56,970 nt of DNA, from NCBI GenBank assembly GCA_945865725.1, contig CAMBEO010000011.1, positions 1 through 56,970 of the forward strand, read 5' to 3'. A program made the translations under genes and the position numbers. The notes under the pieces were generated by a model. That model saw nothing but the letters and a program-made list of their open reading frames with translations, had not been told where the DNA came from and did not search any database. The DNA comes from Thermoflexus hugenholtzii JAD2 (GTDB lineage Bacteria; Chloroflexota; UBA11872; UBA12225). This document shows positions 1 through 43,125 of the stretch, one piece after another (within the stretch, counting starts at the first letter, position 1; the number at the start of each line of letters is the position of its first letter).

Positions 1-1268
1 TCGACGAACACGATTGACGTGGGCGACGCGGTCGCGAGGAAGAGGTTGCCAAGGACCGAGAAGATCGCGCATGCAACCAGCAGGCCTCCCCAGAGGGAGA
101 AGATGCGCGAAGGGGTAAAACCGGACCGCTTCATGTGCGCGGAACTGGCCCAGGCTTCCGGGATGTTGGCCATGAAGACCGCGGCCAGGAAGGTCGGGTT
201 GAAGGTGGCCCAGGTCGTGAACGCGGCGCCAAGGACGATCGCCTCCGGGATGCCGTCGAGCAAGACGCCCATGAAGATCGCGAGCGGGGAACCGTGCCCT
301 TCTTCGGCCTCGTGGTGCGCGGCCTCGGCGTGAGTAACGTGGATCTCCTCGACGCCTTGCGCGATCCACTCGTGCCGGTTGAAGTCACGAGCCTGTTGGC
401 GCAGGTGATGCTCGATATCGAAGGCTCCGTGGGTATGGACCATCACCAGCTCGTCCACCGCGGACTGAAGGAGCAACGACTGCGCCATGACGGCGTTGAA
501 GTCGTCCGCGGAGATGAACAGCAACTGGACGTCATCGACCGCCGTCGCCGTTTCCTGGCGGGTTTCCTTCGTCAGGAGCTCGAGCTCGCCAAAGCAGTGA
601 CCAGGGCCGTACCTGCCGTCCATCCCGCCGGAAACGCCAGGGGTGAACTCGACGTGACCCTTTTCGATCAGGCATACGCCGTCAGAGATGTCACCCGACC
701 GGAAAATCGTTTCGCCCGGCGAGAGGCGCCGCGTGTCGGCGTGGTGGACGAGCTTGACGAGGTCGCTCGCCGGCAGGTTGCGGAACAGGTCGCTCGACGA
801 CAGCTGGACCAGCATGTCGATCGCCTTTTCACGGCGCAGCCGGCGCACGTAGTTGCGCGCCAAGACCGCCTTCCGCATCGCGGCGCCCATGTTGTCGAGC
901 AAGTAGTTTGCGCCCGAGTACACGAGACCACCGACCACGAACCCTGAGGCGACCCACCCCCACCCGGCGAGCCAGTGCATCTTTTCACCGACTATCAGGT
1001 GCTGGGCACTCCCGAATGCCAGCTCCACGGCGAGGGCTTGGATCAAAGCGCCGGCACCGAACGCCATGACAATCGCGACGAACTTCTTTGAAACGTTCAG
1101 GTAAATCCCGAGCGCGGCGCCGATCGGGAGCGAAACCGTCGCAATAATCCCGATGATCAAACTCCCGAATACCGATCCGACGGTTACCTTCAGGTCATCG
1201 GTAGGGACTGTCGAAGCGACAGCCCCAACAGCAAGCGGGGTTAGAATCCCTGCGAGGAAATCCCCCAT
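1..1268 (-). CDS. ZIP-family metal transporter with embedded cyclic nucleotide-binding domain (3' end cut by window edge)
   Basis: The gene starts at the ATG at 1268, preceded by GGAGG eight bases upstream, and reads open to the window edge (about 422 codons visible). The N-terminus holds membrane segments with a ZIP-like LPIGAALG motif (about residues 47-54) and further helices to about residue 120. A soluble block at about 150-275 looks like a cyclic nucleotide-binding domain, with the phosphate-binding-cassette pattern FGELELL followed by R and TAT (about 226-243). A His/Glu-rich stretch (about 310-326) leads back into membrane helices carrying LDGIPEA (about 337-343) and NIPEA (368-372), the ZIP helix IV/V signatures. 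ZIP proteins move divalent metals across the inner membrane. Control of transport by cAMP or a related ligand is inferred from the domain order. The usual first His of the HNxPEG signature is replaced by Asp-Gly. Confidence 0.85.
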   Translation of the reverse strand, partial: MGDFLAGILTPLAVGAVASTVPTDDLKVTVGSVFGSLIIGIIATVSLPIGAALGIYLNVSKKFVAIVMAFGAGALIQALAVELAFGSAQHLIVGEKMHWLAGWGWVASGFVVGGLVYSGANYLLDNMGAAMRKAVLARNYVRRLRREKAIDMLVQLSSSDLFRNLPASDLVKLVHHADTRRLSPGETIFRSGDISDGVCLIEKGHVEFTPGVSGGMDGRYGPGHCFGELELLTKETRQETATAVDDVQLLFISADDFNAVMAQSLLLQSAVDELVMVHTHGAFDIEHHLRQQARDFNRHEWIAQGVEEIHVTHAEAAHHEAEEGHGSPLAIFMGVLLDGIPEAIVLGAAFTTWATFNPTFLAAVFMANIPEAWASSAHMKRSGFTPSRIFSLWGGLLVACAIFSVLGNLFLATASPTSIVFV

Positions 1269-41536: not shown

Positions 41537-41605
41537 CAGTCGGCGTGAACGGCCCTGAAGTGGGACGGCCGCCCCCCCATGCGGGCAGGCGGCCGTCAGA
41601 TTGGG

Positions 41606-41677
41606 CACGGGCGGAGGGACTCGAACCCCCAACCAATGGTTTTGGAGACCACTACTCTGCCATTGAGCTACGCCCGT
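41606..41677 (-). tRNA. tRNA-Trp (CCA)
   Basis: Minus-strand acceptor ACGGGCG/CGCCCGT with discriminator G, anticodon stem GTGGT/ACCAT with loop CTCCAAA (anticodon CCA), and T-arm GGGGG/TCCCTC region with TTCGAGT. CCA end not encoded. It lies 65 bases after tRNA-Leu on the same strand, so they are likely one transcript. Confidence 0.96.
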
Positions 41678-41742
41678 TCGCGCCGGCAGGCTTCACGCGG
41701 ACCGTCGGCCGAAGCCGACGAGACGCGATCAACCGTGCCGGG

Positions 41743-41824
41743 TGCCGGTGGAGGGACTCGAACCCACACGCCTCGCGGCGAACGATTTTGAGTCGTTTGC
41801 GTCTGCCAATTCCGCCACACCGGC
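41743..41824 (-). tRNA. tRNA-Leu (CAA)
   Basis: Minus-strand class II tRNA of 82 bases: acceptor GCCGGTG/CACCGGC with discriminator A, anticodon stem AACGA/TCGTT with loop CTCAAAA (anticodon CAA), and a short variable stem (GCCGCGAGGC). T-loop TTCGAGT is present. A TACAAT hexamer on the minus strand (41843-41838) may be its -10 box. Confidence 0.97.
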
Positions 41825-41902
41825 TCGGAACGCGCCGATTGTACCAATGGCTTCCGCCGATCCGGCGACCGCGCGCAATCCACGCTCGGGGCCTGAATCC
41901 GG

Positions 41903-41908
41903 TACACT
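41903..41908 (+). promoter_or_regulatory. candidate -10 element (TACACT) of tRNA-Glu
   Basis: TACACT lies 30 bases before the tRNA-Glu gene and follows GG, as in the GGTACNNT pattern seen before the tRNA-Thr, Lys and Leu genes. Confidence 0.3.
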
Positions 41909-41938
41909 GCCCTGTCGCGTCGAGGGTTCGGCGCCGAC

Positions 41939-42012
41939 GGCGCGTTCGTCTAGCGGCCTAGGACACCGCCCTCTCAAGGCGGAGACCACGGGTTCGAATC
42001 CCGTACGCGCTA
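41939..42012 (+). tRNA. tRNA-Glu (CTC)
   Basis: Plus-strand acceptor GGCGCGT/ACGCGCT with discriminator A, D-arm GTCTAGCGGCCTAGGAC, anticodon stem CCGCC/GGCGG with loop CTCTCAA (anticodon CTC), and T-arm ACGGG/CCCGT with TTCGAAT. CCA is not encoded. Its last three bases overlap the stop codon of the convergent sulfurtransferase gene. Confidence 0.97.
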
Positions 42013-42897
42013 CCCGTTTTCTACTGGGGCGGGACCAGTTTCGACTGGCAAACTCGGTTCCGCAGACCAGTCGCTCCAGGATCCCACGTAGATCCCGGGC
42101 ACGTCCAAGCCAGCGACATACATCGCGAATGCGTTGTGGCAGGCGGTCACCCCGCTTCCGCACGACACGATCACTGGCATTTCACCCGCGGCGCCAACCT
42201 GCGCAAATCTCGCGTGCAACTCGCTCGCGCCAAGCAGCCGTGGAGCGCCGGATTTGGTCTTGGCGACAAGGTTTCCAGCGAACGGCGCGTTCCGCGCACC
42301 GGGGACGTGCCCTGCGCGGGGATCGATCGGTTCGACAACGCCTTCGAATCGCTCCGGTGCCCGGGCGTCGAGCAAGATGGCGCCGGCACTGAGCGCGGGC
42401 AAGATGTCGCCCCGGGCCACGATCGGTCCGAATGCCCCGAACGACCGTGCCGGGTAGAGCGTTGGGACGGCGATCACACGCCCCGACTCGACCGGGTTCC
42501 CACCCTCGCGCCAGGCCTCGATGCCCCCGTCGAGGACCGACACACGTTCGTGTCCGACCTGGCGCATCATCCACCACATCCGAGCGGCCGTCGACCCGCC
42601 GGTGTCGTCATATGCCACCACGTGCGTCTCGGGATTGATCCCGAGCGCGCCAAGCGACGCGGCAAATGCCTCGGCGGACGGGAGTGGGTGGCGCCCGAGG
42701 CCGGGTCCACCATGGGCCGCCAGGTCATGGTCGAGATCGACAAACGTGGCGCCGGGGAGGTGTGCGTCCTCGAACGCAACCTTGGCCGACTTTCCGGTGG
42801 TCGGCAAGTACCAGCGAACGTCGACCACTTGGACGTCCGGCATTCCGAGATGCGCTGCAAGCCATTCGACCGAGACGATCGCACGTGATCGAGGCAT
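42010..42897 (-). CDS. sulfurtransferase (tandem rhodanese, 3-mercaptopyruvate/thiosulfate type)
   Basis: The 295-residue protein has two rhodanese domains. The N-terminal one is inactive in this family (DDTGGSTAARMWW at its loop), and the C-terminal one holds the active loop CGSGVT with Cys246. The CG(S)GVT loop favours mercaptopyruvate over thiosulfate as sulfur donor, by analogy with characterised enzymes. It is cytosolic, without signal peptide. GGAGGGG just before the ATG at 42897 sets the start; an earlier in-frame codon adds non-conserved sequence. The stop codon lies in the tRNA-Glu gene on the other strand. Confidence 0.92.
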   Translation of the reverse strand: MPRSRAIVSVEWLAAHLGMPDVQVVDVRWYLPTTGKSAKVAFEDAHLPGATFVDLDHDLAAHGGPGLGRHPLPSAEAFAASLGALGINPETHVVAYDDTGGSTAARMWWMMRQVGHERVSVLDGGIEAWREGGNPVESGRVIAVPTLYPARSFGAFGPIVARGDILPALSAGAILLDARAPERFEGVVEPIDPRAGHVPGARNAPFAGNLVAKTKSGAPRLLGASELHARFAQVGAAGEMPVIVSCGSGVTACHNAFAMYVAGLDVPGIYVGSWSDWSAEPSLPVETGPAPVENG

Positions 42898-42999
42898 TTC
42901 CCCTCCAATCGCCGGGCGACTGAAAGGCCCGGGACGCGGATTCTTCCATGCAGGCCTACCGTGGGGCTGAAGGGCGGAAGTTGGATGCCGCAAGATCGC

Positions 43000-43005
43000 T
43001 ACAAT
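43000..43005 (+). promoter_or_regulatory. candidate -10 element (TACAAT) of tRNA-Arg
   Basis: TACAAT ends ten bases before the tRNA-Arg gene. The same hexamer occurs upstream of tRNA-Leu. Confidence 0.4.
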
Positions 43006-43015
43006 CCGTCCGCCC

Positions 43016-43087
43016 GCCCCCGTAGCTCAGTGGATAGAGCAGAGGTTTCCTAAACCTTGTGCGGGTGTTCAATTCACCCCGGGGGTA
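43016..43087 (+). tRNA. tRNA-Arg (CCT)
   Basis: Acceptor GCCCCCG/CGGGGGT with discriminator A, D-arm GCTC/GAGC, anticodon stem GAGGT/ACCTT with loop TTCCTAA (anticodon CCT, reads AGG), and T-arm GGGTG/CACCC with loop TTCAATT. CCA is not encoded. Confidence 0.95.
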
Positions 43088-43125
43088 CCCATTCGAGCCC
43101 GACCTCCCCATCGCGAGTGATCGAG

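Follow-up and report, generated by a model that had tools for sequence, protein, structure and literature searches.

The window analysed here, a stretch of 56,970 nucleotides, comprises the entire contig C11 of a fragmented metagenome-assembled genome (MAG; 2.3 Mb, 85% complete). Its first gene, on the minus strand, encodes a ZIP-family membrane protein carrying an inserted cyclic nucleotide-binding domain (CNBD), an architecture referred to below as CNBD-ZIP. The reading frame, complement(3..1268), is open at its 3' end because the window starts within the gene, and about 50 aa of the C-terminus are cut off. Transmembrane helix (TM) coordinates of the window protein were transferred by alignment from a model of the ortholog P0001/L038, giving the following features.

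3..1268, minus strand: CNBD-ZIP gene (422 aa), truncated at its 3' end where the contig begins (ORF listing; the window is contig C11 from base 1)
1101..1181, minus strand: TM1, aa 30-56 (ortholog model and alignment)
987..1088, minus strand: TM2, aa 61-94, with the motif MAFGAGAL, aligned to FAAGMML of BbZIP (ortholog model, BbZIP alignment)
891..974, minus strand: TM3, aa 99-126 (ortholog model and alignment)
432..869, minus strand: inserted CNBD with flanking helices, aa 134-279 (PF00027 match, beta barrel in the model, Foldseek matches to CNBDs)
552..593, minus strand: phosphate binding cassette FGELELLTKETRQE, aa 226-239 (sequence alignments; compared with TbPKAR RBC-A, GELELMYQTPTVA)
288..431, minus strand: linker with the His/Glu-rich loop HVTHAEAAHHEAEEGHG before TM4, aa 280-327 (direct reading, family His counts)
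222..287, minus strand: TM4, aa 328-349, with LLDGIPEA; D338 corresponds to BbZIP H177 and E342 to E181 (ortholog model, BbZIP alignment)
126..197, minus strand: TM5, aa 358-381, with MANIPEA; N368 corresponds to BbZIP D208 and E371 to E211 (ortholog model, BbZIP alignment)
36..113, minus strand: TM6, aa 386-411 (ortholog model and alignment)

Directly upstream of the gene lies a tRNA-Thr (1460-1534), and four tRNA genes (Trp, Leu, Glu and Arg), with both strands represented, are clustered at 41604-43089. Contig C18 of the same genome opens in frame with AMVAQTMLPHAFEEGGAPVGIASIAGFLAAFVFTAQSLATVAAH and a stop (G000:C18:3-137, L121), which are probably the last 44 aa of the window gene; with a 483-aa ortholog as the yardstick, about nine residues are missing between the C11 and C18 pieces. 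On C18, AMVAQTMLPHAFEEGGAPVGIASIAGFLAAFVFTAQSLATVAAH is followed by a gene that, judged from its sequence, resembles a peptide ABC-transporter substrate-binding protein, and in related genomes, too, the CNBD-ZIP is followed by such a gene. From these contig ends we infer a C11/C18 join. The probable gene end reads LPHAF where relatives have MPEAY/F, a family-conserved Glu being replaced by His.

For the full-length ortholog of 483 aa, AlphaFold2 with an alignment of 28 sequences (mean pLDDT 77.6, pTM 0.62) placed TM1 at 32-58, TM2 at 63-96, TM3 at 101-128 and the CNBD at about 136-281, followed by further helices (287-325), a disordered loop (326-338), and TM4 to TM8 at 340-361, 370-393, 398-423, 428-458 and 461-482. 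The CNBD therefore lies between TM3 and TM4, at the counterpart of the BbZIP loop L(3,4), although its orientation to the membrane is uncertain at this pTM, and the order TM1-3, CNBD, TM4-8 is that of the full-length relatives of about 480 aa. An earlier note on this DNA had proposed a CNBD embedded in a ZIP transporter with a His/Glu-rich loop behind it, and both parts are borne out: the domain search returned a significant PF00027 match (aa 180-263, nt 731-480, E=3e-18, 66 bits against a cut-off of 27.5), and the stretch HVTHAEAAHHEAEEGHG occupies aa 310-326, after the CNBD and just before TM4. According to the His counts, this stretch is typical of the clade to which the window protein belongs (the window clade) and is largely missing in the rest of the family.

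The membrane part belongs to a divergent ZIP subfamily. Pfam Zip gave no match at E<=1 against the window protein alone, because the gene is truncated and divergent; in ten relatives scanned, the best match reached E=6e-8 and all remained below the curated gathering cut-off, which marks the subfamily as divergent. A profile of members lacking the CNBD matched BbZIP over TM1-8 with E-values of 9e-10 to 5e-9, giving sequence homology to a known ZIP. Since the Foldseek ranks of the full ortholog model were topped exclusively by CNBDs, a CNBD-less member was modelled to check the ZIP fold; this model matched nine BbZIP chains (TM-score 0.68-0.79), the next match having E=0.13. Thus the CNBD-less model fits BbZIP significantly and no other fold, and eight TM helices are present in the ortholog from the window clade.

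The subfamily has neither HNxPEG in TM4 nor the full binuclear metal site. Relative to BbZIP, H177 is replaced by Asp in all 88 aligned members, N178 mostly by Gly, Q207 by Ser or Ala, D208 by Asn, E240 by Ser and M99 by Leu, while E181 and E211 remain Glu in 88/88; hence Asp/Glu/Glu at the M1-site positions is invariant, with or without the CNBD, and the M2-site residues N178, D208 and E240 and the gating residue E276 are unconserved. The earlier note had described the altered signature DGIPEA as a feature of this gene. The motif LLDGIPEA is indeed present, but with the D and E of DGIPE invariant in 88/88 members the signature is a trait of the whole subfamily, CNBD or not; all that sets the window protein and its nearest ortholog apart is the closing Ala, a Ser in relatives. 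The exchange of H177 for Asp in TM4 is accordingly read, from the alignment, as subfamily variation. Human ZIP13 likewise has Asp at the H177 position, so this substitution alone does not exclude transport, and the M2 site is described as auxiliary (PMC9530640).

The identity of the inserted domain is supported from several sides. Its PDB sequence matches are the PKA and PKG regulatory domains and the MloK1 channel, Foldseek places it among HCN, CAP, MloK1, PKG and SLC9C1 domains with probability 1.00, and PF25562 (CNBH) matches the window protein weakly (E=0.019). Among 32 CNBD-ZIPs, the ribose Glu and the phosphate Arg are each present in 31 and Ala occupies the PKA Ala202 position in 26; most cassettes resemble FGEMALLTGEPRSAT and are fully canonical (FGE[LIV]AL...R), and a cNMP, cAMP or cGMP, would, judged from these cassettes, be the canonical ligand across the family. 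Damaged pockets occur in the relatives L057 and L008 and in the tandem form L168.

In the window protein, the ribose Glu is E228 and the PKA Arg209 position is R237, so that the pocket Glu and Arg on which the earlier note had proposed to judge the domain are both in place. The PKA Ala202 position is E230 and the Arg+2 position is E239. All six members of the window clade, from two genera and including two paralogs, share this pattern (FGE[LV]EL...R.E), with Glu at both the Ala202 and Arg+2 positions. L127, a canonical CNBD-ZIP of the same family but of a third genus, retains FGEMALLSGEPRSAS; the other aligned CNBDs from the sampled Chloroflexota loci, L127 included, mostly have Ala (24) or Ser (12) at the Ala202 position, and just one of them aligns a Glu, beside a gap. 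Kannan et al. tabulated 30 CNB families, none of which has Glu at this position (PMC2246266).

The closest parallel is the trypanosomatid PKA regulatory subunit, whose Ala202 position is likewise Glu, at the same spacing (GELELMYQTPTVA compared with GELELLTKETRQE). There, Glu at this position underlies the switch from cAMP to nucleosides, with E311/E435 binding the ribose 3' and 5' hydroxyls and clashing with the cAMP phosphate (PMC10959531). The two systems differ in that Arg209 is lost in the kinetoplastid subunit and retained in the window clade (R237), and in the output domain, which is a kinase inhibitor in the kinetoplastid protein. The kinetoplastid protein also has an alpha-D capping helix. 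Thus, of the two marks of a nucleoside-type CNB, the window clade shows the Glu (6/6) and lacks the loss of the phosphate Arg. The combination of Arg and Glu found in the window clade is that of TbPKAR mutant 4, in which Arg alone was restored; its response to inosine was about unchanged, and it responded to cIMP with an EC50 of 24 uM (PMC10959531). With that Glu in the pocket, cAMP would not be the safest assumption as the ligand of the window clade. By analogy with the trypanosomatid subunit, that ligand is probably altered, with weaker cNMP binding and possibly a purine nucleoside in its place. Selection on the CNBD is purifying in the window clade (dN/dS about 0.02-0.15, with saturation in many of the dS estimates), and the domain is therefore not decaying.

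Of 301 genomes surveyed in the window's phylum, a handful have full CNBD-ZIPs, alongside shorter relatives without the domain. In a wider scan with one genome per species, CNBD-ZIP records carried the labels Chloroflexota, Bacteroidota, Ignavibacteriota, Pseudomonadota (mainly Competibacteraceae), Deltaproteobacteria, Latescibacterota, Handelsmanbacteria and one cyanobacterium, about eight phyla in total, although most carriers are metagenome assemblies and single taxon labels may therefore be wrong. Members without the CNBD came from Actinomycetota, Microvirga and others. For Bacteroidota and their relatives, the share of genomes with a family member was about 3% (297 genomes). In a maximum-likelihood tree of the membrane part alone, with the insert columns removed and no root inferred, the 32 CNBD proteins and the CNBD-less Chloroflexota proteins L011 and L012 were separated from the rest by a branch with 100/99 support, and the presence of the CNBD required two changes of state against a mean of 21 after shuffling. 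The simplest reading of this pattern would be one insertion followed by one loss. The Chloroflexota proteins L011 and L012, and also L063 and L065, have apparently lost the CNBD and kept a stretch resembling its first helix together with the His-rich loop.

In BbZIP, the TM3-TM4 loop connects the TM3 scaffold with the mobile elevator bundle of TM4-6. It is zinc-sensing and autoregulatory, two of its His residues locking the inward state together with Asp144 and Glu276 (PMC10256678). The CNBD-ZIP protein would be an eight-helix ZIP-family transporter of divalent metals in which this cytoplasmic loop is replaced by the CNBD. CNBDs shift their C-helix and N-terminal helices upon ligand binding. 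As the ends of the domain are tied to TM3 and TM4, such ligand-driven movement should bias the elevator: binding would alter the packing of the CNBD helices, the elevator would be freed or locked, and transport would come to depend on an intracellular nucleotide signal. In the window clade, the His/Glu-rich tail behind the CNBD may provide a second, metal input. Ligand-gated metal transport, canonically by cNMP and with a ligand that is probably altered in the window clade, is the reading we favour and hold to be rather probable. Sequence and model show the ZIP and CNBD folds, the insertion site, the conservation of the transport-site carboxylates and of the pocket, selection on the domain and a shared ancestry, and we infer transport activity, the metal, the ligand and the direction of regulation. 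A more far-reaching version is unlikely when taken as a whole, namely that these proteins form an undescribed, widespread family of second-messenger-gated ZIPs in which the sensor of the window clade, in a change convergent with that of trypanosome PKA, came to respond to purine nucleosides instead of cyclic nucleotides and thereby couples metal transport to nucleoside levels.

The genomic surroundings were considered for hints to the ligand and metal. Class III nucleotidyl cyclases were found in 23 of 24 CNBD-ZIP genomes outside Chloroflexota and in 12 of 13 tested genomes of the window's phylum, but these are raw counts without a background rate. Sister genomes in the family of the window genome encode such cyclases, and in the window's own genome neither a class III cyclase nor a GGDEF protein was found, the CNBD-ZIP being its sole PF00027 protein at E<=1e-8. 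With that genome 85% complete and no background rate, the counts decide nothing, and the co-occurrence of cyclases with CNBD-ZIP is suggestive at best. Beyond close relatives, no gene neighbour of the CNBD-bearing loci was common across phyla, and gene context therefore gives neither a metal nor a ligand.

It is conceivable, if somewhat unlikely, that the CNBD of the window clade is no longer a ligand sensor, E230 and E239 neutralising the pocket Arg, and serves as a structural or oligomerisation module. The CNBH domain of the CNNM metal transporters is thought to have such a role, and the replacement of two pocket Ala by Glu in all clade members, the degenerate pockets of L057, L008 and L168 and the lack of a detected cyclase in the 85% complete genome would all fit. 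Against this, every clade member keeps the ribose Glu and the phosphate Arg, purifying selection on the domain is strong, trypanosomatid PKA offers a known case of a functional, ligand-binding pocket with Glu at the Ala202 position, and sister genomes of the same family do encode class III cyclases. A sensor or other non-transporting homolog with a ZIP fold, for instance a receptor reporting metal or nucleotide state, appears distinctly improbable. The substitutions at H177 (Asp), Q207 (Ser/Ala), D208 (Asn) and E240 (Ser), together with the unconserved E276, are what such a protein might show, but the three M1-site carboxylates are invariant in 88/88 members, human ZIP13 also has Asp at the H177 position, and the M2 site is described as auxiliary (PMC9530640).

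That the fusion arose from assembly or gene calling has almost no probability. The window does derive from a fragmented MAG, with the gene cut by a contig edge, yet genomes of about eight phyla, independent of one another, have the same uninterrupted architecture, and these proteins group as a single clade. An artefact or a chance fusion was accordingly rejected on the intact orthologs in related genomes, the single clade and the purifying selection.

The combination of domains sets the family apart from the known systems with which it was compared. BbZIP of Bordetella bronchiseptica (PDB 5TSA, 8CZJ, 8GHT) shares the eight-TM fold, the PE motifs in TM4 and TM5 and, with the window clade, His residues in the TM3-TM4 loop, but has a short loop in place of the CNBD. 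The channels MloK1, SthK and HCN, the top Foldseek and sequence matches, have the same CNBD fold and the canonical cassette of most family members, with the domain C-terminal to a channel instead of within an elevator-type transporter. The sperm Na+/H+ exchanger SLC9C1 is likewise a secondary transporter carrying a CNBD (structure 9YDF against the model, TM-score 0.82 by target), and differs in transporter fold, domain position and organism. CNNM/CorC proteins are also metal transporters with a CNBD-like domain; they combine a DUF21 membrane domain, non-homologous to ZIP, with a C-terminal CNBH. Bacterial MFS transporters with a fused CNBD are the only such fusions mentioned in a review, according to which fused domains of this kind are usually C-terminal (PMC10710835); they too use the CNBD as a plug-in regulator, on a different transporter family.

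The earlier note had called the design unusual, and this view is upheld: no description of the CNBD-ZIP architecture was found in the open-access literature searched. The transporter fold and the sensor domain are both known, and it is their combination, conserved over many phyla, that is undescribed. It suggests that some bacteria turn metal uptake on or off by a small signalling molecule. If this is true, bacterial cyclic-nucleotide signalling extends, in many phyla, to direct post-translational control of metal uptake. The way in which the TM3-TM4 regulatory loop of ZIPs acts on the elevator is a matter of ongoing work, and a natural family with a well-understood ligand-switched domain at that loop offers a direct test of loop control. 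The clade with the change from Ala to Glu could be used to test whether, beyond trypanosomes, one residue in the pocket is enough to turn a CNBD from cyclic nucleotides to nucleosides.

Several family members depart from the common architecture. In a 685-aa ORF (L168, G386), the insert between TM3 and TM4 is a tandem pair of CNBDs whose cassettes (FSRLAFITGSPNATAA and FGALSMITGAHHAAAA) are both damaged. At L013 (G006:C2), the CNBD-ZIP gene lies in two overlapping frames, 2328-1357 and 1384-911, with the break between the CNBD and TM4, so that one ORF holds TM1-3 and the CNBD and the next TM4-8, pointing to either a frameshift or two subunits. Finally, at 1-660 of L033 a stretch containing HELSH is followed in frame by the C-terminal part of a ZIP (LPHAFEDGG); this fragment lies immediately upstream of an intact CNBD-ZIP paralog and looks like a remnant or a misassembly.
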